This document shows, piece after piece, positions 7,052-34,891 of a stretch of DNA of 36,771 nucleotides. The DNA comes from Bacillota bacterium. GTDB taxonomy: Bacteria > Bacillota > UBA994. Location: positions 1 to 36,771 of the forward strand of contig WSXW01000031.1 of NCBI GenBank assembly GCA_009773495.1, read 5' to 3'. Numbering within the stretch: the stretch's first letter is position 1; the number at the start of each line of letters is the position of its first letter. Made by a program: the position numbers and the translations under genes. Under the pieces are notes generated by a model. The model saw only the letters and a list, made by a program, of their open reading frames with translations, ran no database searches and was not told the DNA's origin.

Positions 7052-8293
7052 ATGCAAGCCATCTACGATTACATACATAGTATCAAGTCATTCAGTGCCA
7101 ACGCACGTCTCTTTTTGCTCGCCAGTTTTGCGGGTGCTCTTTACCATAGCGTCTTTAGTGTGCTAGGTAATCTCTACATACTGCGTGCAGGGCTGACGGA
7201 GACCTTTCTAGGTACGATGATTTCAGCTGCATCTTTTGCCAGCGTTCTCTTTGCCTTGCCAGCAGGCTTACTTAGTGACCGCATCGGTAGGCGCAAGGCC
7301 TTAGTTTTGGCAGCAGTCATTGCTGCCGCCATGCAACTGACGATAATTCTCTTTCCTTCAGCAGTCGTCATTCTCGTGGCTACCTTCTTAGGTGGAGCAG
7401 CGAGTGCCGTGATGATGGTGTCCGGCTCTCCGTTTTTAGTTGAAAATAGCACGCGTGAGGAGAGAGCCCATCTTTTTAGCATTAGTTCGGCCTCGTACAC
7501 AATAAGCGGCATAGGGGGTAGTTTTCTCGGTGGTACGCTGCCCCTATGGTGGGCCCGTGCCCTGAGCGCTGCACCTGCATCACTAGTAGTTTACCGCGCT
7601 ACTTTGCTAACGGCCTTTTTTATTTTAGTTTTGGCAGTTATACCGTACTTTCTTATTAAAGAAACGTCAGTCGTTCGAACTAGCGCTAGCCCCCGTTTCA
7701 GTCTGCGTTTGGCTAGACCACGTTTGATTGGGTGCTTTGTTATCCCCGAACTTTTTATGGGGCTGGGTGCAGGCCTAGTTATTCCCTTTCTTAATGTCTA
7801 CTTCTCTAACCATCTCGGAGCAAATGCCACCCAAATTGGTATGATTTTTTCCGTGATGTCATTAATTACAACGATTGGCGTACTAGGGGCTCCCCTCTTA
7901 GGGCGCAAGTATGGGAAAGTGGGCGCAACAGTTCTCACACGTCTATTGTCCGTGCCCTTGCTAATTGTCATCGCTATGGCTAGTAATCTCTGGTTTGCTG
8001 CATCCGCCGCTTGGCTTAGGTCAGCACTGATGAATATGAGTAATCCATTAGTGGGCAGCTTTACTATGGAAGTACTTGAGCCCTCTGAGCGGGCTACCGT
8101 GAGTAGTATTTTAGGCATGACCTGGAATTTAGGTTGGGGAATTAGTGCGCGCCTAGCCGGGCATATTATGAAAACGTATTCCTATAGTCTACCGTACTAC
8201 TTCACCGCAGTGCTCTACACCCTCAGCGCCCTAACCTTCTACTACTTCTTCGCCAGCCGCGAACAGGAACTGACGGCAACCGTTGCAGACTAA
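7052..8293 (+). CDS. MFS transporter (probable drug exporter)
   Basis: A 413-residue major facilitator with about 12 membrane helices in two halves. The diagnostic loop 2-3 motif GLLSDRIGRRK is at residues 72-82, and a weaker second copy (APLLGRKYGK) is in the matching loop of the second half. The family moves drugs, sugars or metabolites using the proton gradient; the substrate cannot be told from sequence. It sits between ligA and gatCAB and is read in the same direction, but has a 132-base leader of its own with an RBS-masking hairpin. The ATG at 7052 follows GGAGGAG at normal spacing. Confidence 0.85.
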   Translation: MQAIYDYIHSIKSFSANARLFLLASFAGALYHSVFSVLGNLYILRAGLTETFLGTMISAASFASVLFALPAGLLSDRIGRRKALVLAAVIAAAMQLTIILFPSAVVILVATFLGGAASAVMMVSGSPFLVENSTREERAHLFSISSASYTISGIGGSFLGGTLPLWWARALSAAPASLVVYRATLLTAFFILVLAVIPYFLIKETSVVRTSASPRFSLRLARPRLIGCFVIPELFMGLGAGLVIPFLNVYFSNHLGANATQIGMIFSVMSLITTIGVLGAPLLGRKYGKVGATVLTRLLSVPLLIVIAMASNLWFAASAAWLRSALMNMSNPLVGSFTMEVLEPSERATVSSILGMTWNLGWGISARLAGHIMKTYSYSLPYYFTAVLYTLSALTFYYFFASREQELTATVAD

Positions 8294-8408: not shown

Positions 8409-8440
8409 TTTTGCACACAATATACAGGAGCGTGATCCAC

Positions 8441-8731
8441 ATGCGTCTAACACCCGAACAAGTCCAAAAAGTCGCCGAGCTTGCCAGGCTTCAGCTCTCT
8501 CTAGATGAACGAGAGCGCTATGCCGAACAGCTCAGCGCGGTACTAGGGTACTTTAACATGCTGAACTCCCTAGATACCGTCAACGTTTCTCCTACCAGCC
8601 ATGCCCTAATGCTCAAAAACGTCCTCCGCGAAGACCAAGTCCGACCTTCTCTCTCACAACAACAGGTGATGAGTCTAGCCCCGGAGCTTTCCGGCGAACT
8701 AGTGGCTATACCTCGTACATTTGAGGGGTAG
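8441..8731 (+). CDS. gatC: Asp/Glu-tRNA amidotransferase subunit GatC
   Basis: The smallest subunit of the GatCAB complex, which converts Glu-tRNA(Gln) and/or Asp-tRNA(Asn) to the amide forms. The protein is 96 residues, the normal size, starting [19 protein letters not shown] and containing the conserved segment [11 protein letters not shown]. GatC wraps around and stabilises GatA and GatB. The ATG at 8441 is ten bases after AGGAG; the frame is open further upstream to about 8321, but that part is unlike GatC and lacks a ribosome site. gatA starts 11 bases downstream. Confidence 0.95.
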
Positions 8732-8742
8732 GTGTATTAGAT

Positions 8743-10218
8743 ATGAAGATATATGAGCTAAATGCCAGCGAAATACATAAGGGCCTGCGCCATAAAGACT
8801 TCTCGGCCCGAGAGGTAGCGCAGGCTCATCTCTATAGAATTGAGCAAACAGATAAGGATCTAAAAGCCTTTGTTACTGTTACTACGGAGCAGGCCTTGCG
8901 TGCTGCCGATGCAGTAGACGCTAAGATGAGTCGAGGGGAAGAGCTGCACCCCTTAAGCGGTATACCTGTGGCTGTAAAAGACAATATGTGTACCACGGGT
9001 GTTAAAACCACCTGTAGCTCTAAGATGCTAGAGAGCTTTGTGCCGCCCTACACTGCAACCGTAGTGAACAAGCTAGAGCAAGCAGGAGCTGTGGTTTTAG
9101 GCAAAACTAACCTCGACGAATTTGCTATGGGCTCTTCCACCGAAAACTCCGCTTTCTTTACTACCCGTAATCCCTACGATCTCGAGCGGGTGCCGGGCGG
9201 CTCCAGCGGTGGTTCGGCGGTAGCCGTTGCCGCCGGACAAGCAGTTATAGCTTTAGGTTCGGATACCGGCGGCTCCATTCGCCAACCCGCCGCCTTCTGC
9301 GGCATTGTCGGAGTAAAGCCTACCTATAGCCTAGTGTCGCGCTATGGTCTGGTAGCTTTTGCTTCGTCTCTAGATCAGGTCGGCCCCTTTGCACGCACTG
9401 TGAGCGATGCCGCTTGGGCTCTAGAGGCCCTGGCTGGCCACGACCCACTCGATTCGACTTCAGTTCCTAATGCTCCCGTGGATTGGTCCCAACCTCTAGA
9501 TAAGGGCATACGAGGTCTTAAGGTTGGCGTGCCGCGCGAGTACTTTGCCGATGGTATGGAGCCAGCAGTCGTCAAATCGGTAAGAGAAGCAATTAAGGTC
9601 TTTGAGTGCTTGGGCGCAGAGATAAGCGAGATATCACTACCGCACACCAGCTATGCTCTGCCTACCTATTATATAATCGCTCCGGCAGAGGCATCATCTA
9701 ACCTGGCTCGTTTTGACGGTGTGCGTTATGGCTTTAGAGCTGAGGGAGCCACTAACCAAGAAGAGCTCATTAGTCTTAGTCGTAGTCAAGGTTTTGGGCC
9801 GGAAGTAAAACGTCGTATCATGCTGGGTACCTATGCTTTGAGTAACGGTTATTACGACGCCTACTACGGTAAGGCACAAAAGGTGCGCTCCCTGATCAAG
9901 CAAGACTTCGATAACGCCTTTAGCCAAGTCGATATAATCCTGTCTCCCACTAGCCCTACCACTGCCTTCAAGGTAGGGGCCAGAGTCAACGACCCACTCT
10001 CGATGTATATGGCCGATCTCTGCACCTTTGCCGTCAACCTGGCGGGTATCCCGGCGCTATCCCTTAACTGTGGCTTTGTCGAAGGTCTGCCCGTAGGGCT
10101 TCAGCTCATGGGTAAAGCCTTCAGTGAGATGATGTTACTGCAGGCAGCTTTCGCTTATGAGCAGACGGTCAAGTTACCGCAACTCCCAGTGTTTAAAGGG
10201 GGTCTCCCTAATGTATGA
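8743..10218 (+). CDS. gatA: Glu-tRNA(Gln) amidotransferase subunit GatA
   Basis: A 491-residue amidase-signature protein. It releases ammonia from glutamine and channels it to GatB. The Ser-cisSer-Lys triad is complete: K79 in VAVKDN, S154 in GGSSGGS and S178 in [12 protein letters not shown], the same numbers as in Staphylococcus aureus GatA. C-terminal [20 protein letters not shown] is typical. Its last 8 bases overlap the start of gatB, so the three gat genes form one translationally coupled operon. Confidence 0.97.
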
Positions 10219-11647
10219 GACAGCCATTGGTATGGAGGTTCATCTAGAGCTTTGCACTAGGTCGAAAGTCTTTTGCGGCTGTAGCACCAATTACGGTGGA
10301 GCACCTAACTCGCAAGCTTGCCCGGTTTGTTTGGGGCTGCCTGGGTCTCTCCCGGTCCTAAACAAGAGGGCAGTGGAGTTTGCCATTAAGGCCTCCCTAG
10401 CCCTCAATTGCGAAGTGGCACCTGAAACGAAGTTTGACCGCAAGAACTACTTCTACCCCGATCTAGTTAAGGGTTACCAGATCTCGCAGTACGACAAGCC
10501 CATCGGACGCAACGGCTATATTGAGTTTGAGGTCGAGGGAGTAACCCGACGTGTGGGCATTAGGCGTGTGCACCTAGAGGAGGACACAGGTAAGTCTTTT
10601 CACGACGTAGCCGCCGAGCGTACTTACCTAGACTTTAACCGCAGCGGCGTGCCGCTAATTGAGATAGTCACCGAGCCAGATATACGCTCCTCGGCCGAAG
10701 CCAAGTCCTACCTAGAAGCACTGCGTGAGATTATGGAATATATCGAGGTCTCGGACTGCCGCATCGAAGAAGGCTCCATGCGCTGCGAGGCGAATATCAG
10801 TATTCGCCCTACGGGCAGCTCTGATTACGGTATTTTAAATGAAATAAAAAACATTGGCTCCTTGCGCGGCGTGCAGCGGGCCTTGGAGTATGAGATCAAG
10901 CGCCAAACAGAGCTGGTGAGCTCGGGAGGTATAGTCTTACGTCAAACTAGGCGCTGGAACGAGAGCGAGCTCAAAACCGAAGTCATGCGCACAAAAGAAG
11001 AGGCCCACGACTACCGCTACTTCCCTGAACCAGACTTGGTGCAGTTGGTTATAGATAATTCCTGGCTAAACAAATGCCGCAGTGAAATCCCCGAGCTACC
11101 TCGCGCCCGTCGTGAGCGTTATGTACGAGAGCTTGGTATTACCCCTTACGACGCCGAAGAACTGGTAGCAGACAGAGCCTTAGCCCAGTATTTTGAGGGA
11201 GTAGCTAGGCTCGGTACAGAGCCCAAGCTTGCCGCTAATTGGCTACTCTCCGATTTACGTCGCGAACTCAACCAAGCAAGTTTAGCAATAGAGCAGGTTA
11301 AGTTGCGTGAGGCGGGCTTTTCTGAGCTGATGGTGCTTGTATCTAGTGGTGCAATTGGTAGCAAGACAGCTAAGGATATACTTGGCGAGCTAGTGCATTC
11401 TGGCGTATCTCCAGCCGCTTATGTCAAGGAGAAAGGCCTGGCACAGCTTAGCGATACCAGCGAGATTGAGAAGTTCGTAGAGCAGGCCATAGCCGACAGC
11501 CCCAAAATCGTAGCCGACTACCGCGTCGGCAAAGAACGAGCCCTTACTGCCTTAGTGGGGGTTGTCATGAAGCTTTCGCGTGGTAAGGCTAAGCCGGAGC
11601 TAGTCAACGACCTGCTTACGCAGAAGCTGAATAAGGGACGGCTCTAA
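10211..11647 (+). CDS. gatB: Asp/Glu-tRNA amidotransferase subunit GatB
   Basis: A 478-residue GatB, the subunit that binds the mischarged tRNA, phosphorylates its side chain and transfers ammonia. The N-terminal kinase-like cradle begins [13 protein letters not shown] and includes the zinc-site cysteines ([21 protein letters not shown]); [18 protein letters not shown] and MRCEANIS are conserved; the C-terminal YqeY-like tail domain is complete. The ATG at 10211 lies 8 bases inside gatA and is preceded by AAAGGGGG (10195-10202). An in-frame upstream codon at 10157 is rejected because GatB proteins begin at MYETAIG. Confidence 0.97.
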
Positions 11648-11735
11648 AAGGGCTCAATCGGAAAAAGTTACGTGAAAAAGGCTTAATCTCCATCCAGTAG
11701 CAGAGATTAAGCCTCAAGTAAAGACCCTTAAAATT
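11638..11735. repeat. ~95-bp repeat, copy 1
   Basis: This segment is highly similar to 14126-14222. Both contain GGCT, AAAAGGG, a shared CGTGAAAAAGG run, the same terminator hairpin and TTAAAAT at the end, with scattered differences. The two copies lie at the 3' ends of the two minus-strand operons of the accessory block. Confidence 0.85.
11680..11713 (-). terminator. terminator of the secreted-protein/ABC-2 operon
   Basis: A perfect 11-bp stem (GGCTTAATCTC with GAGATTAAGCC) and a 12-base loop. Read on the minus strand it is followed by TTTTT, so it ends transcripts coming from the right. On the plus strand it sits 32 bases after gatB without a T-run and may add weakly to termination there. 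Confidence 0.8.
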
Positions 11736-11792: not shown

Positions 11793-11939
11793 CTACTTCA
11801 AATAGAGTTTCAACACAAGGCCGATTAGCCCCCCTATGAGAAGTACTATGCCGCTTACAACTTTATCCGCCCGAAACAGTAGTAATGCCATCCCTAAAGC
11901 AATATAAAAAACCGATTCCCATATTCGCCATTTGGCCAT
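11793..11939 (-). CDS. 48-residue two-helix membrane peptide
   Basis: A short gene with a good ribosome site (AAGGGGGTGAAGAGG directly before the ATG at 11939). The peptide starts MAKWRIWESV; two hydrophobic helices, about residues 9-21 and 26-45, are joined by a short charged turn (RADK), and it ends LYLK. I recognise no family. It lies 46 bases after the ABC-2 permease on the same strand and before the operon terminator, so it is likely made with the transporter. Immunity or accessory function is a guess from context only. Confidence 0.6.
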   Translation of the reverse strand: MAKWRIWESVFYIALGMALLLFRADKVVSGIVLLIGGLIGLVLKLYLK

Positions 11940-11985
11940 CCTCTTCACCCCCTTGCATTAATTTGGCAGACCGCTAAGCGTTTCA

Positions 11986-12717
11986 TTAGGCTAGTAGATC
12001 TTTGCGTATAAAAGAACTAATTGACCAATACACCGCAATTCCGAACCAAAGGGCAACTCCCACAATTGCATGCGTGAGCTCGGTGGGGAATTTACCAGTA
12101 GACATATACCTCGCAAGACCGGCAAACATACGGTTTGCCAGAGGCAGTATCCATGCAGGAATCGACCCCGCTTCCTGCATGAACGGTAGCATAGTGCCTA
12201 CGCCAATGTAAACGCTTAAGGCAGCAATCGCTGCACCGCCTACCGGCATAATGCCCATAAATACCAACGTAATGGCCTGGATCAACAGCAGCTGTCCTGT
12301 CAGTATGAGGTAAATAACTACATCCCTTACGAAGAGAGGCCATGCTGGTCTAGCGATGTAAGTGGACAGTGCTAAAACGCTGCCAGTCCATATAAGCAGC
12401 ATTACCACTATAGAAAGAATAGCGGCTCCGAAGATAACTGCGCGCGTAAGTCCTATCGACAACAGCCCGTCCACATTTCTACGGGAGAATACTTCTTCAA
12501 ATACCGATATATTGAGAAAAACTACAAGCCATGTCCCAAAAAAATGTGCCCACGACATATAGTCTGCCCTGCGGTTTTCCATCGCAAAGTTAACAGTATC
12601 TTCATAGACCAAAAAGCGGAATATGAGTAGGGCCATAAATGCGAGATAAACATAGATTGTTCGCTTTCTAATCACATTAGCGAGAAAAAATAGAATCATC
12701 TCACATAATTTTTTCAC
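11986..12717 (-). CDS. ABC-2 type transporter permease
   Basis: A 243-residue integral membrane protein with about six helices, the size of a simple ABC-2 permease. Its start overlaps the end of the ATPase gene by 17 bases, so the two are coupled. The helices alternate with short loops. Proteins like this pair up and export peptides, antibiotics or lipids, or protect the producer from its own peptide. No sequence motif gives the substrate. The next upstream genes are the ATPase and a small secreted protein. Confidence 0.75.
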   Translation of the reverse strand: MKKLCEMILFFLANVIRKRTIYVYLAFMALLIFRFLVYEDTVNFAMENRRADYMSWAHFFGTWLVVFLNISVFEEVFSRRNVDGLLSIGLTRAVIFGAAILSIVVMLLIWTGSVLALSTYIARPAWPLFVRDVVIYLILTGQLLLIQAITLVFMGIMPVGGAAIAALSVYIGVGTMLPFMQEAGSIPAWILPLANRMFAGLARYMSTGKFPTELTHAIVGVALWFGIAVYWSISSFIRKDLLA

Positions 12718-13606
12718 TGTTCACATCCTCCATTATACTGGCTTTAAGAATGTCTTCAAGCGAACGTGGCCTGATTTCGATGATATCGCCGTTTTGAGAT
12801 AGTACAAATCGACAAACATTATTTATCTGATCGCTTGGAATTTCGACTTCGTATTCCGTGCCCCTCACTGATACTTGAGTCCCCGCAAGTTCTTCTGGCA
12901 TCGCAATGCCTTCGGGTGCTCTAAACTTCGCAATGCAGGTGTTAACGGCGACAATCTCCTTATGCAGTTGACCTTTTCGCATGACTAGCACTCGATCGCA
13001 AATCTTGGCCACCTCCTCTAGATTATGAGAGGCATATACTATGGCTGCTCCCTGTTTTTTCAGCATGGAAATAATATCAACTAAATTCCATCGGAAATTG
13101 ACATCAAGGCTCTCCGTAGGCTCATCAAGCAAATATACCTGTCGCGGGAAAGCCAAGCACATAGACAAAGCAAAACGTTGCAACATGCCTCTGGAAAGTT
13201 GTCCGATTCTTTTGTCACCGAAGGTCCCTATCCCCATGGCGTCCGAGACAAAACTATGGACTGGCTTGCTAGGTCTAGCTAAGCTCACGTATGCTTTCCA
13301 ATAATCTTTGACGGGCATCGCTTGCGAAAGCCTTGGCTCCTCAGCTAAAAACCCCACCATCCGCTTTTCTAGGGCTTTTTTAGGGAGCAATCCCCCCACA
13401 CTAATACTGCCGCTGCTAAGACACAAAAACCCTGCTATTGTACGGAATAGCGTTGTTTTTCCAGATCCATTCGGGCCGATTATACCTACTACCTCACCTT
13501 GGTGCCCCTGAAAATTTACATTACGTAATGCTGTGACTTCTATCCCTTGCGATTTTGCGAAGACTTTTCCCACCATCTTGCAGATAACGATTGGCTCATC
13601 GGGCAT
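12701..13606 (-). CDS. ABC transporter ATP-binding protein
   Basis: A 301-residue ABC-2-type ATPase. Walker A GPNGSGKTT is at residues 44-52, the signature is LSRGMLQRFALSM (LSRGM in place of LSGGQ, common in this group), Walker B is VYLLDEPTESLD with catalytic Glu, and the switch His is in ASHNLEEVAKICD. After about residue 215 a C-terminal extension follows, as in bacitracin- or lantibiotic-resistance-type ATPases. The ATG at 13606 follows CGGAGGTG. It forms one transporter with the overlapping permease. Confidence 0.9.
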   Translation of the reverse strand: MPDEPIVICKMVGKVFAKSQGIEVTALRNVNFQGHQGEVVGIIGPNGSGKTTLFRTIAGFLCLSSGSISVGGLLPKKALEKRMVGFLAEEPRLSQAMPVKDYWKAYVSLARPSKPVHSFVSDAMGIGTFGDKRIGQLSRGMLQRFALSMCLAFPRQVYLLDEPTESLDVNFRWNLVDIISMLKKQGAAIVYASHNLEEVAKICDRVLVMRKGQLHKEIVAVNTCIAKFRAPEGIAMPEELAGTQVSVRGTEYEVEIPSDQINNVCRFVLSQNGDIIEIRPRSLEDILKASIMEDVNSEKIM

Positions 13607-13683
13607 AAAGTAGCACCTCCGATTGCATTTTATTGAAGAATATGCGCCTGACTAAAAAGTGAATGAAAAGGGCAAGAATTAAC

Positions 13684-14007
13684 CTATCTCCAGTTAACTA
13701 TTCCAAAAGATATGTCGCAGGCATGTTCGCCCGTAAGCGCCCAATGGCCAATTCCTGTGTTCCCCTGAACGGCAGTGACCCTAGGCTGAAGCTCCTGCCA
13801 CACTTCATTCAGAAACCACAGCCGCATGAACCAATCAATTACTGTCGCGGCAACTTTCCAAGCCTGAGGCCAGGCCTCAATAGACACATCGCCTTCAGAA
13901 TGCGCCTGATTAATAGGTTCCACATCAAATGCCCCTGCGTGGATGGGTGCTATTCCCATAAGGCCTACCGTAAATACCAATAGGGTGCACACCAGTTTAT
14001 TTAGCAT
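13684..14007 (-). CDS. small secreted protein of unknown family
   Basis: A 107-residue protein with a clear Sec signal peptide: MLNKL, a hydrophobic core to about residue 20, and a probable cut after PIHA (residue 24). The mature part of about 83 residues is rich in Trp (AWPQAW, DWFMRLWF, EVWQEL, GHWAL, VNWR) and has one Cys. I recognise no family, and no lactococcin-972, lantibiotic or GG-leader motif. The ATG at 14007 follows CAAGGGGGTTAGATAT. It lies 77 bases upstream of the ABC-2 ATPase and 57 bases downstream of a 17-base homopolymer. A secreted effector, bacteriocin-like peptide or transporter partner is possible, but unproven. Confidence 0.6.
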   Translation of the reverse strand: MLNKLVCTLLVFTVGLMGIAPIHAGAFDVEPINQAHSEGDVSIEAWPQAWKVAATVIDWFMRLWFLNEVWQELQPRVTAVQGNTGIGHWALTGEHACDISFGIVNWR

Positions 14008-14063
14008 ATATCTAACCCCCTTGTATTAGTATAAACCCCGACCCTTTCCATTCTATGCTACTT

Positions 14064-14080
14064 CCCCCCCCCCCCCCCCC
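14064..14080. repeat. 17-base C tract (G tract on the coding strand)
   Basis: Seventeen C in a row, read as 17 G upstream of the minus-strand secreted-protein gene; the near end is 57 bases from its ATG. Homopolymers of this length change length by slippage and are the classic basis of phase-variable promoters. A possible -10 element TATACT lies between the tract and the gene, without a good -35. Confidence 0.85.
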
Positions 14081-14125
14081 GTATACCGCCAAAATATGCA
14101 CCCGAGATGGTTACTTTGCAACTAG

Positions 14126-14222
14126 GGCGGCTTTAAAAGGGGTCAAGCAGAAATTTTGCGTGAAAAAGGCTTAATCTCCATTCGATAGTAGAGATTAAGC
14201 CTCAGGTTAGGATTCTTAAAAT
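14126..14222. repeat. ~95-bp repeat, copy 2
   Basis: The second copy of the element at 11638-11735, in the same orientation. It starts beside the poly-C leader and ends 17 bases before the stop codon of the ABC exporter gene. Segment 11736-14125, the whole secreted-protein/ABC-2 module, is therefore bracketed by direct repeats. Confidence 0.85.
14168..14201 (-). terminator. terminator of the heterodimeric ABC exporter operon
   Basis: The same 11-bp stem as at 11680-11713 with a slightly different 12-base loop, and TTTTT following on the minus strand. It lies about 40 bases after the end of the exporter operon. Confidence 0.8.
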
Positions 14223-14239: not shown

Positions 14240-15988
14240 CTATCCATGCCACAAGAGCCGCATCTCCTCGCAGCGCTCCATTAGCTCATCGAGCTTGCCT
14301 GAGTCATGCACTTGGCCATCCTTGAGCACAATGATATGATCAGCCCTTCTCAAAGCGGGGCGGCGATGCGAGACCACTAGGCAGGTGACATTTGGGCGCT
14401 TAAAGACTCTCTCCCACAGTAGTCCTTCGGTCTCAACATCAAGAGCAGAGGACAAATCATCAAAAACGAGCAGTGAGGCGTTGCGTGCTAGCATGCGTGC
14501 AGCTGCTACCCGTTGTACTTGGCCACCACTGAGCTTGACGCCGCGCGAACCAACCAAGGTATCTAGACCGTGTTCCATCTGTCTAAGGTCAGGCTCGAGT
14601 ACAGCACTGTGAATAGCTGAAGAAATATTTACACTCTCTTCTGGTTGCCCTAGTAGAATATTGCCCCGCACTGGGTCACTAAAGAGTATGGGTACCTGGC
14701 TGGCATAGGCTGTACGAGGTGGGACAAAGAAATCGGTGGGATCAGCCACATCTTGGCCGTTCCAGGTAATAGTACCGCTATCCTTCTGCACTAGGCCGAG
14801 GAGTGCCTTGAGGAAGGTGGACTTACCTGACCCAATGCGCCCGGTAATGACCACAAACTCGCCAGCCTTCACTCTCAGGTTAATACCGTTGACTCCTCTA
14901 TCTGCTCCAGGGTAGTGGAAGGAGAGATCCCGTACTTCAAGGCTCTTTAGTTCTGTAGTGCTGTTGTGCAGGGGAACATCAATGGCAGGCAGCTCACCTT
15001 TTAAGTGCAAGGAATTGTGCTCCACCAACACAGCAGGGGGGCTCTTAAAGAGAAATTCTGCCATGCGGTCAAAAGAGACCGAAGTTTGCTTAAAGTGTGC
15101 CAGAAAAAAACCAAAGAACTCGGAGAAACCAGTGACAAAGTCGAGGTAATAGACAAAGAGGGCAAAATCCCCCACCGAGAATGTGCCGGTGCTCATGGCT
15201 TGACTAGCAAGTATGAGGATAAACCCGGTGCCCAAAGACACAGCATTGCTGCTGACTGAGTCGAGCAACAGATTAAAGGCTCGGTCCTTAAGCACGAGTT
15301 TGCGTCGTTCTTCGTTGAGCTGGCTCAAATGCTCGACCATTCTGGCTTCAGCGCCCGCCACCTGTATTGCCAGTACTGCACTGAAGGTTTCCCCTAGAAA
15401 ACCAGTTACTTGAGCTGTCGCTTCACGGCTAGCTTGACGGTACTGCTCAATCTTGTGAGTGGCGCGGTTAAAGATTACCATTACTGCTACCAAAGGCACG
15501 AACACAAAGAATGTAATCCGTGCACTAATGCTTATTAATATCCATAGTGCCACCACTGCAAAGAGCACATTACCGACTATATCTAGTGTCCAACTAATTG
15601 CGTCCTCGGCTTGTTCTGCGTCTTCGCGAAAGTAACTCACGGCCTCACCTGGTGAGCAGGGAATTGCCTGTGCACCAGGGCGTTTGAGTATGTGAGTGAG
15701 CATATTATTTCGCAATAAGGCGCTCATAGAGAAGCGGTGCTGCGAGTCTGCCCACGCGCCAAGCAGGATTACACATATTCTCCCTAAGGCCACGGCAAAT
15801 AACATAGCAATAATAGTCCAAGTGTTTATCCCGGCAGCAGCCTCGCCCGTAAGGTGGTTAAAGAACAAGCGGGTTATGAGACCGGGCAGGAGAGGAAAGG
15901 TATGTACCCCCGTCCAAAAAATGCCGTCAAAGAAATATAACACTGGCCGATAGAGTATCATCCGCCAGATTAGTTTAAAGGCCTTCAT
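14240..15988 (-). CDS. ABC exporter half-transporter, degenerate Walker B subunit
   Basis: A 582-residue type I ABC exporter with a membrane domain (about residues 1-310) and an ATPase domain. Walker A GRIGSGKST is at 383-391 and the signature LSGGQ at 486-490. Walker B reads LLVFDD (506-511), with Asp511 where the catalytic Glu should be; the switch His is present (VVSHRRP). In heterodimeric exporters such as TM287/288 or BmrCD one subunit has exactly this change. Its ATG overlaps the stop of the partner gene (ATGA) behind AAAGGAG, so the two are made together. Substrate unknown, probably drugs or peptides. Confidence 0.9.
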   Translation of the reverse strand: MKAFKLIWRMILYRPVLYFFDGIFWTGVHTFPLLPGLITRLFFNHLTGEAAAGINTWTIIAMLFAVALGRICVILLGAWADSQHRFSMSALLRNNMLTHILKRPGAQAIPCSPGEAVSYFREDAEQAEDAISWTLDIVGNVLFAVVALWILISISARITFFVFVPLVAVMVIFNRATHKIEQYRQASREATAQVTGFLGETFSAVLAIQVAGAEARMVEHLSQLNEERRKLVLKDRAFNLLLDSVSSNAVSLGTGFILILASQAMSTGTFSVGDFALFVYYLDFVTGFSEFFGFFLAHFKQTSVSFDRMAEFLFKSPPAVLVEHNSLHLKGELPAIDVPLHNSTTELKSLEVRDLSFHYPGADRGVNGINLRVKAGEFVVITGRIGSGKSTFLKALLGLVQKDSGTITWNGQDVADPTDFFVPPRTAYASQVPILFSDPVRGNILLGQPEESVNISSAIHSAVLEPDLRQMEHGLDTLVGSRGVKLSGGQVQRVAAARMLARNASLLVFDDLSSALDVETEGLLWERVFKRPNVTCLVVSHRRPALRRADHIIVLKDGQVHDSGKLDELMERCEEMRLLWHG

Positions 15989-17727
15989 GCGAATAACTCC
16001 TTTAGCCCGGTAGTTAGCAGAGTGCTAAAGCGTGAAGATGGGTTTGAACTAAGCTCCAACCTTGCACCATGCTCTACTATCTTGCCGTTTTCAAGAATAA
16101 GAATATCGTCTGCGCGTTCCACGGTGTCAAGCCTGTGGGCGATAATTACTCCCGTGCGGTTATGCAGTAGCTTGGTGATAGCGCGTTCTATCAGTTGCTC
16201 TGTGGCGGGGTCTAGCCTAGATGAGGCTTCGTCCAAGATTACTACCGAGGGCTCGGTTAAAAAGCACCGTGCTAAGGCCAAAAGTTGTGCCTCACCCGCC
16301 GAAAGACCAGCGCTGCCAGAACTAAGCATTGTCTCTAGCCCCTCTGGCAATGTCGTAAGCCAACTATCCAGGCCTAGGTCATGGAGTATCTCCAATATCT
16401 TCGCGTCGGGGATCTCGTTGTTAAAAAAGGTCAGGTTCTCCCGCACTGTGGCCTGAAAAAGCTGCACGTCTTGTGTAACCATGGTCACCTTCTGCCGAAG
16501 GTGAGTGAGTTTTGGGTCACGTATGGATTTACCGCCTAGGCGTATTTCTCCAGTTGCTGGGTCGTACAGCCGTAGCAGCAGTCTAGCTAAAGTCGTCTTA
16601 CCGCTTCCGGTTCTGCCCAATAACCCTAGTACCTTACCTGGCTCAAGGGTGAAGCTGATATCATCTAGCACGGTGTCATCGTCTTCGTAGTTAAAAGTTA
16701 CATTTTCAAACTCTATCGCGAGCGGTCCAGGGGTTAGTTCTACACCATGTCCATCTTGTACCTTAGATTTAATGTTCAGCAGCTCATTAATGCGTGTAAT
16801 TCCAGCGGACGCACGTTGTAGTTCTTGGAGTTGTGTCCTGATTTGGTCAATGGGGCGTCTTAGAAGCTCAGTGTAATGCACTATAAGGTAGACCGTGCCA
16901 ATAGTAATGGCGTGACTTCGCCAGAGATAGGCCCCAAAGCCAAAGGCAATGGCATTTCCGAGAGTGAAGGTAAAGGTGCTGGCCGACCACATGGTAGTGC
17001 CTGCAATGTAAGCCTTCATGCGGGTAGGCAACCACTCCCGGAGCCTAAGGTAAAACCGCTTCATCACGTAGCTCGCCGCGCCATTAGCCCGGATATCTTC
17101 AGTGCCAGCTAAGTGCTCGGTTAGAAATCCAAAGAATAGACCACTCTGCTGGCGGTCTAATGTCCAGTGAGGCACCGCAATGTCTCTGAGTAGGGTAAGC
17201 ACTGCTACGGCAATAATCGCAAAAACGCTTAGTGCTAAGCCCACACGGTAGTCCTCGTGGAATAGGAGAACTAGGACTCCCACCAGCAGCAACACATTCA
17301 CGACAATACCCATGACAAACTGTGAAAAGAACAAAGAGAGTTTGTTTACATCACCGTCGATGCGCTCAATCATCTCACCCGATGTATGCGCCTTTTGAAA
17401 CGACATGTCTAGACTTAGACAGTGTGCCGTGACATCGCGACGCAAGAGGTTGGTGGCAGTCCATCCTACATCCTCGCTTACGTATTTGGAGTAAGCCGTA
17501 ACAGCAGACGACTTAAGGGCCACTATCATAAATAGTAACGCAGTATACCCAAGGTTAGCATGTGAAGTACCATTAGCAGTATCGATAAATATCCTGAGTA
17601 TTTGCGGCTTGGCGAGCTGCAATGTGAGGCTTAAGACGATAAGCAGCCCAAGCAAAGCCACGCGCCGCCATTGCGGACGCACGTATTTAGCTAGTAAGTC
17701 GGTATAGTGTTTAAGGGCAACTTTCAT
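15985..17727 (-). CDS. ABC exporter half-transporter, degenerate signature subunit
   Basis: A 580-residue type I ABC exporter, partner of the next gene. Walker A GRTGSGKTT is at 371-379 and Walker B VVILDE carries the catalytic Glu (E500), but the signature is LSAGE (475-479) rather than LSGGQ. With the partner this makes one full ATP site (this Walker A/B with the partner LSGGQ) and one degenerate site, as in known heterodimeric exporters. The ATG at 17727 is nine bases after GGAGG; an in-frame TTG at 17736 touches the GGAGG and is unlikely to be used. The upstream region is repeat-rich. Confidence 0.9.
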   Translation of the reverse strand: MKVALKHYTDLLAKYVRPQWRRVALLGLLIVLSLTLQLAKPQILRIFIDTANGTSHANLGYTALLFMIVALKSSAVTAYSKYVSEDVGWTATNLLRRDVTAHCLSLDMSFQKAHTSGEMIERIDGDVNKLSLFFSQFVMGIVVNVLLLVGVLVLLFHEDYRVGLALSVFAIIAVAVLTLLRDIAVPHWTLDRQQSGLFFGFLTEHLAGTEDIRANGAASYVMKRFYLRLREWLPTRMKAYIAGTTMWSASTFTFTLGNAIAFGFGAYLWRSHAITIGTVYLIVHYTELLRRPIDQIRTQLQELQRASAGITRINELLNIKSKVQDGHGVELTPGPLAIEFENVTFNYEDDDTVLDDISFTLEPGKVLGLLGRTGSGKTTLARLLLRLYDPATGEIRLGGKSIRDPKLTHLRQKVTMVTQDVQLFQATVRENLTFFNNEIPDAKILEILHDLGLDSWLTTLPEGLETMLSSGSAGLSAGEAQLLALARCFLTEPSVVILDEASSRLDPATEQLIERAITKLLHNRTGVIIAHRLDTVERADDILILENGKIVEHGARLELSSNPSSRFSTLLTTGLKELFA

Positions 17728-17837
17728 CTTTCTCAACCTCCAAATCTACCATACAATTATACGCATAGGCCAACATAGTGTCAGTGTAAAGTATGGGTAG
17801 AATTTGTTGTCAGCCGTCAGCCGTCAGGCAGCATCCT

Positions 17838-17872
17838 GTAAGGTGAGATTAAAGAAATTCAGCGGGATGGGC
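17838..17872 (+). repeat. 35-bp direct repeat, copy 1
   Basis: The sequence beginning GTAAGGTGAGAT and ending CAGCGGGATGGGC matches 18056-18090 at 33 of 35 positions by eye. Confidence 0.85.
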
Positions 17873-17891
17873 GGGGATAAGCGGGATGGGG
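17864..17891 (+). repeat. putative G-quadruplex run
   Basis: Five G-runs (GGG, GGG, GGGG, GGG, GGGG) are separated by loops of 2, 1, 6 and 2 bases, which fits the usual G-quadruplex pattern. It overlaps the end of the first 35-bp repeat. Folding is predicted only. Confidence 0.5.
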
Positions 17892-17925
17892 TTGGATAGG
17901 AAGAGAACCGACTAATAAAAATCGC

Positions 17926-17959
17926 GTTAATCGTGTTAATCGAGTTAATCTGTGTTATC
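17926..17959 (+). repeat. tandem GTTAATC repeats
   Basis: GTTAATC occurs at 17926, 17935 and 17944, then a degenerate GTTATC at 17954. The period is 9-10 bases, about one helical turn. Confidence 0.8.
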
Positions 17960-18055
17960 CGTTACTTCCTTCCTATCCCTCTTATCCCTTCCCGTGCCCC
18001 TGAAATCCCGTATGAAATCTTACATACCGGACATGCAACGGCCCTTTGGGTGCTT

Positions 18056-18090
18056 GTAAGGTGAGATCAAAGAAATTCAGCGGGATAGGC
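18056..18090 (+). repeat. 35-bp direct repeat, copy 2
   Basis: Second copy of the repeat at 17838-17872, 218 bases away, followed by a less regular G-rich run. Confidence 0.85.
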
Positions 18091-18193
18091 CGGATGAACA
18101 GGATGGGGCGGGACAGGCAGAAGACGTAATTAAGCGGGGACATTCGGGACCGAGCGGGACTATCTGGACAGGAGGGGAAAATGTAGACCAAAT

Positions 18194-33904: not shown

Positions 33905-34891
33905 ATGGAAAATGAAAAACCGAAAATGACAGTTACAATTATTCCGGCCAAAATCACAGGGATTAAAAATGGTCGCGATATATTGTCGAGTCAGCACGAC
34001 GCATGAAGCACAAGAAGAAAGCTTGGATATCCAAATCAAAACATTAAAGCAGGTTGTGGCGGATAATCCCAAGTGGATGCATTACCATGTCTACAGCGAT
34101 AAAGACTCTGGCGGTAATGTTTTTCGACCTGATTTCCAGAAGCTGATTTTTGACTGCTATGAATATAGAATTGATATAGTTCTTTTAAAAACAATTAGCC
34201 GCTTTGCCCGCAATACTGTAGACTTGCTTGAAACGGTGAGTCGCCTCAAAGGATTGGGAATAGAAGTCATTTCCATCAAGAAAATTTACGCACCAGTGAA
34301 GCAGATAACGATATGCTTATCTCAGCCCTCGGCGCAATCGCTCAGGCTGAAAGTGAGTCAACAGGGGAAGCGATCAAGTGGGGATTGAAGCGGGGGTTCA
34401 TATCTGGAAATTCAAAGCTGTATTCCCGCAAGTGCTTCGGGTATAAACAAAATGAAGATGGTGAGCTCATTATCGATGAGGAACAAGCGGAAATTGTTCG
34501 GACAATATATGATTTATACTTGAGTGGCCTCAGCATCGGACTCATAGCGAAGGAACTTAAGATAAGAGGCATTAATTCGCCACAAGGTAAAGATATTTGG
34601 TCGAAAAAGTCCATTCAAACTGTATTAGGAAATGAAAAGTACATTGGACAGGTATTGTTGGGAAAGACCTATACTGGGAATTTCCCTAACAATAAGCAGT
34701 TCCTAAATGATGGAGAGCATGAGCAGTTTCTAATGAAGGATGCTCACGAACCGATTATTGGGCTTAAAAAATTCGAGCAAGTTCAAGAGGAAATGAAACA
34801 GAGGAGCAACATTGAAATTGTTAACGGAGCATCTAAGAGGAAGAGGACGCATTATAGTACAAAGCGTTTAAAAAATGAAAAGCATGAATAG
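33905..34891 (+). pseudogene. large serine recombinase, broken by two frameshifts
   Basis: Three reading frames together give one recombinase of about 328 residues. Part 1 (33905 to about 33967) reads MENEKPKMTVTIIPAKITGIK; part 2 (to about 34284) has the resolvase catalytic segment VAIYCRVST with the catalytic Ser, then ISRFARNTVDLLETV; part 3 (to 34891) reads ISALGAIAQAESEST and the recombinase DNA-binding domain (CFGYKQNEDGEL to KYIGQVLLGKTYTG). The breaks are one extra A in the run at 33965-33969 and one missing A in the run at 34281-34284. They cancel in frame. Either the gene is decaying or the bases are sequencing errors. Ribosome site AAAAAGGTGAAGGT precedes 33905. It ends KRKRTHYSTKRLKNEKHE with no zinc-ribbon domain. 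Confidence 0.8.

Follow-up and report, generated by a model that had tools for sequence, protein, structure and literature searches.

Four consecutive genes on the minus strand of the window (the whole stretch of DNA analysed, 36,771 nt), encoding proteins of 107, 301, 243 and 48 aa and followed by a hairpin terminator, raise the question of whether they form a system for making and protecting against one small exported peptide, and of whether the run of 17 G upstream of them acts as its switch. The row of four genes, the terminator, the G17 tract and the 17-base overlap between the frames of the putative permease and the ATPase, all listed in a preliminary description of this DNA, are present as described (Table 1); the overlap in the related genome G002 is 4 bases. 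In the window the module has gatB on one side and a pair of ABC exporters on the other. This exporter pair (14240-17736) was considered as a part of the module and excluded, as it is not beside the module in G002 and exporters matching it occur without the module in both G005 and G002.

Table 1. Coordinates of the module and its surroundings within the window
Feature	Position	Strand	Basis or remark
107-aa secreted protein	13684..14007	-	ORF and signal peptide
ABC ATPase, 301 aa	12701..13606	-	Pfam ABC_tran, 5.5e-23
Polytopic membrane protein, 243 aa, putative permease	11986..12717	-	~6 hydrophobic segments; no family match
Cationic protein, 48 aa, mostly hydrophobic, immunity-like	11793..11939	-	Two segments, pI 10
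Hairpin terminator of the module	11680..11713	-	11-bp stem, 12-nt loop, T5 tail
G17 homopolymer upstream of the operon	14064..14080	-	G002 counterpart is 8 G, L013:7358-7365
56-nt leader/promoter-like stretch, tract to start codon	14008..14063	-	Conserved with G002
Direct repeat copy 1, ~100 nt, 72-nt core 11663-11734	11635..11734		Spans the terminator and the last gatB codons
Direct repeat copy 2, core 14151-14222 (83% identical)	14125..14222		Behind the upstream ABC exporter

The hairpin at the end of the module, GGCTTAATCTC-N12-GAGATTAAGCC followed by T5, is terminator-like (folding z -2.7). It is absent from the list of the automatic terminator scan, which was restricted to loops of 3-8 nt, and an Rfam sau-63 match at the same place was discarded with a score far below threshold. 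Elsewhere in the window, a 39-nt direct repeat (92% identical, spaced 218 nt) lies upstream of the ABC exporter pair at 17837-18093, and a serine recombinase with Resolvase and Recombinase domains, encoded in two overlapping frames at 33969-34891, is probably a broken gene.

A conserved four-gene order in other genomes had been put forward as support for a system, and this order was found once, in G002, a member of the same family and a different genus, which carries all four genes at amino acid identities of 58, 75, 69 and 40 % for the 107-, 301-, 243- and 48-aa proteins, respectively. At the protein level the 107- and 48-aa proteins have changed fastest and the transporter slowest. The module is absent from six other genomes of the family and from a 399-genome sample of the phylum, neither the 107-aa protein nor the putative permease matched anything on plasmids, and no relative of the module was found in viral contigs. 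Weak matches in G142, G023 and G253 were rejected as short and partial or interrupted by internal stops, and a scan of genome contigs with the ATPase returned unrelated ABC ATPases only. The carriers among the searched genomes number two, the window genome and G002.

The loci that hold the module in these two carriers are unrelated and have different neighbours, those in G002 being iorB on one side and a group II intron on the other. Matching neighbourhoods without the module are seen in G006, where a different gene comes directly after iorB, and in G005, where a different gene comes after the closest ABC exporter pair. Third-codon divergence between the two carriers was 0.41, 0.49 and 0.44 in the three longer module genes and 0.58 in the 48-aa gene, which is very short, against 0.60-0.675 in five syntenic genes shared by the same two genomes (module versus pcrA, Fisher p 5e-13). 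Since the divergence of the module is well below that of the syntenic genes, it probably spread horizontally after the two genera split, either by exchange or from a common source. The group II intron of G002 (Rfam RF00029 at 7449-7525; element L013:7449-12133, contig 30) is located upstream of the G tract, at a distance of about 85 nt. Three overlapping tyrosine recombinase genes in tandem interrupt its reverse-transcriptase gene, in the manner of a recombinase-in-trio-like element.

Further, the module in the window is bracketed by a direct repeat of ~100 nt; the genome has no further copy of it or of its hairpin. Both copies lie behind operons on the minus strand and resemble terminator hairpins; copy 1 holds the last gatB codons, CGG CTC TAA, and copy 2 has a matching CGG CTT TAA. 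Such an arrangement would fit insertion by recombination at the end of gatB, and a search for an empty insertion site found none. The gatCAB operon lies at 8432-11647 of the window. A search of seven other genomes of the family detected no counterpart of gatB, which suggests that this genome gained the gene or that its relatives lost it or diverged strongly in it.

The 107-aa protein had been claimed as a Trp-rich protein with a signal peptide, and it does have an N-terminal signal peptide (about residues 1-26, with an A-G-A cleavage motif also present in the G002 homologue) and seven Trp. The signal peptide is followed by an acidic linker and then by a predicted amphipathic helix at about residues 45-83 (low-confidence model), and the C-terminal motif G-TGI-HWAL-GEHA-DI--G-VNW[RK] is conserved. 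The mature product is acidic, with pI values of 4.7 and 6.2. There was no match to this protein in Pfam, NCBIfam, PHROG or PADLOC and no significant match in the PDB, and its structure model is of low confidence (pLDDT 54). The frame is under purifying selection, with a dN/dS of 0.32 (bootstrap 0.17-0.54) in a codon analysis of the window against G002, contrary to the lack of selection that the preliminary description named as evidence against its reading. In the G002 homologue the ATG of the window is replaced by TTA and the nearest in-frame start, a TTG at L013:7289, lies four codons later, such that translation may begin late or weakly.

In the libraries searched with the module proteins (Pfam, NCBIfam, PHROGs and PADLOC), only the ATPase matched. 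It is of the DrrA/NosF/ABCA export type with a C-terminal extension, and its best-scoring families include DrrA, GldA, NosF and ABCA, with every score below the equivalog cut-off. Of the ABC-2 ATPase and permease claimed earlier, the ATPase was thus borne out as an export-type protein, and the permease keeps its label by gene pairing: because the 243-aa protein matches no family in Pfam or NCBIfam, ABC-2 families included, both ‘permease’ and ‘ABC-2’ are putative names that come from its position beside the ATPase. An hhalign comparison of this protein with two ABC-2 proteins of the window was negative, and its predicted structure was of low confidence and too poor for fold comparison, for which reason fold-search matches were dismissed as meaningless; an SPC12 match (E 0.002-0.02, below cut-off) was regarded as a weak hydrophobic-segment match. 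Between the window and G002, dN/dS is about 0.08 for the ATPase and about 0.2 for the putative permease. The last protein of the module (48 aa in the window, 53 aa in G002; pI 10.0 and 9.8, GRAVY 1.3 and 1.5) is small, cationic and hydrophobic like the immunity proteins of circular bacteriocins, and is immunity-like by these properties, with no match to any bacteriocin or immunity family in Pfam, NCBIfam, PHROGs or PADLOC. A match to phrog_18301 (E 0.008) was rejected as a weak hydrophobic-segment match.

A tentative best explanation, given somewhat less than an even chance, is that the module combines a Sec-exported peptide with a transporter and with an immunity-like protein that is small and cationic, the toxin activity being putative. 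The horizontally moving and probably single-transcript cassette would make and handle one small exported peptide: the 107-aa protein would exit by Sec with its signal peptide cut after residue 26, the Trp-containing amphipathic helix would act on the membranes of competitor cells, the ATPase and putative permease would clear the peptide from the membrane of the producer itself, and any that remained would be neutralised by the 48-aa protein. In the weakest step, the length of the G tract just upstream of the conserved promoter-like block could tune transcription. The cassette reading draws on what was observed: the order of the four genes is conserved, there is purifying selection, carriers are scattered, synonymous divergence is below that of host genes, and repeats bracket the module. 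The secreted effector with a transporter and immunity set that was claimed initially is partly supported by the first two of these observations and is a reasonable reading. Against a peptide with self-protection are the lack of homology of the 107- and 48-aa proteins to bacteriocin or immunity families, the poor structure model, the TTA in place of ATG in G002, the presence of just two carriers, and the acidity of the mature product, most bacteriocins being cationic.

The main rival, which is possible but more doubtful, is a four-subunit transporter with nothing toxic about it. This transporter would export a lipid, peptide or antibiotic, with the 107-aa protein as its accessory or sensing subunit outside the cytoplasm and the 48-aa protein as a further, small subunit in the membrane. 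Four genes kept together in a fixed order, and an exported protein that is conserved at its C-terminal end and acidic rather than cationic, would suit this arrangement, and a lone transferred resistance-type exporter would also fit the patchy distribution. However, the 107- and 48-aa proteins diverge faster than the transporter (58 and 40 % versus 69-75 % identity), which is unexpected for a tightly bound subunit, and no known accessory-subunit family matches. A peptide with self-protection is the better fit because a fast-changing exported peptide and small protein are combined with a slow-changing transporter and transferred as a unit. A quorum or developmental signalling peptide, exported and then processed outside the cell, would also be consistent with the dedicated transporter and with the small size and export of the 107-aa protein, whose conserved C-terminal end could be set free to serve as the signal, but no receptor, regulator or protease gene accompanies the module in both genomes, and this explanation is given little weight.

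With regard to control, the G17 tract ends 56 nt upstream of the ATG of the 107-aa gene and lies outside every reading frame; 17 is its assembled length, which is uncertain if the assembly was made from short reads. G runs of at least nine show no general excess in the genome (11 observed versus about 10 expected), and two runs of at least 14 were observed against 0.008 expected. These two long tracts are the tail of a distribution and not a genome-wide switch system. The second, a G14 at 54212-54225 of G000 contig 44 (L005:1501-1514), is intergenic, and the divergent genes on either side of it encode an S41-type protease and a pyroglutamyl-peptidase-like protein. In G002, 8 G are found at the position matching the G17, such that a comparison of the tract with that of a relative, as proposed in the preliminary description, finds its place kept and its length changed; between two species this distant, 8 versus 17 G is a length difference, not switching. 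The conserved upstream DNA starts at the tract, the 56-nt leader being alike downstream of it in the window and G002, with no convincing similarity between the two upstream of it. The leader contains a candidate -10 element, TATACT, at which a sigma-70 consensus scan found no promoter. In each of the two species TATAC lies 30 nt from the tract, and the tract is followed by a conserved GGGT[CT]GGG and a G-rich ribosome-binding stretch.

These features bear on two readings that concern the control of the operon rather than its function. A phase-variation switch, in which slippage would change tract length and thereby promoter activity, is unlikely, although some probability attaches to it: a run of 17 G is far beyond chance (about 1e-4 expected per genome, assuming independent bases), the tract differs in length between the species while remaining exactly 30 nt from a conserved TATAC, and promoter poly-G tracts control Treponema tprL and Neisseria porA (PMC7864442). 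However, the conserved spacing downstream of the tract means that the -35/-10 spacing of the candidate promoter would be unchanged by tract length, the difference between 8 and 17 G over a genus-level gap can be ordinary drift, and each species is represented by a single assembly. Because the tract is upstream of the promoter-like block, a change in length would be expected to affect upstream contacts or a G-quadruplex. A G-quadruplex, in the DNA or the leader RNA, that controls expression with no switching by length is improbable; G17 by itself is long enough for four G3 runs and the GGG runs behind it are conserved, but the quadruplex is hypothetical, folding shows no ordinary structure, and the program used does not model quadruplexes here. 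The fullest combination is a long shot: antagonistic peptides exported by Sec would form a new family, with a transporter and mini-immunity protein, carried on a mobile cassette, and their production would be turned on or off in single cells by slippage of the promoter-proximal G tract.

If the peptide is antagonistic, the module would represent a compact, undescribed peptide and self-protection family that lacks modification enzymes. Library searches gave nothing useful for the 107-, 243- and 48-aa proteins, so that a profile built on these sequences would give access to the family. Should the G tract prove to switch the module, competition would be under contingency control in a bacterium other than the well-studied pathogens.

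Among known systems, poly-G phase variation of tprL and porA likewise has a long G tract upstream of a gene for an exported protein; tract length in porA is reported to act on the -35/-10 spacing (PMC7864442), whereas the tract of the module is upstream of a conserved promoter-like block and not between -35 and -10, as compared in one assembly per species. As in exporters of the LanFEG/DrrAB type, the ATPase scores with DrrA, GldA and the lantibiotic-protection subfamily and is paired with a polytopic protein of ~240 aa, but its scores are far below curated cut-offs, the permease is without a family and no modification enzymes are present. Circular bacteriocin operons contain a precursor, an ATPase, a membrane protein and a small cationic hydrophobic protein, plus a DUF95 protein (PMC6131525), and descriptions of AS-48 include an immunity protein with two segments and an ABC transporter that acts by expulsion (PMC8538875). 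The module differs from them in that its precursor has a classical signal peptide, an acidic mature part and no sequence homology, and that no protein has a DUF95/SpoIIM-type domain in Pfam or NCBIfam; because it lacks both DUF95 and homology, it is not a member of these operons. It nevertheless has the same kinds of components as the operons of enterocin AS-48, circularin A and uberolysin, with a small precursor gene, an ABC ATPase, a membrane partner and a small cationic hydrophobic protein (PMC6131525, PMC8538875), and by its gene content resembles a bacteriocin self-protection operon in layout while belonging to no described family.
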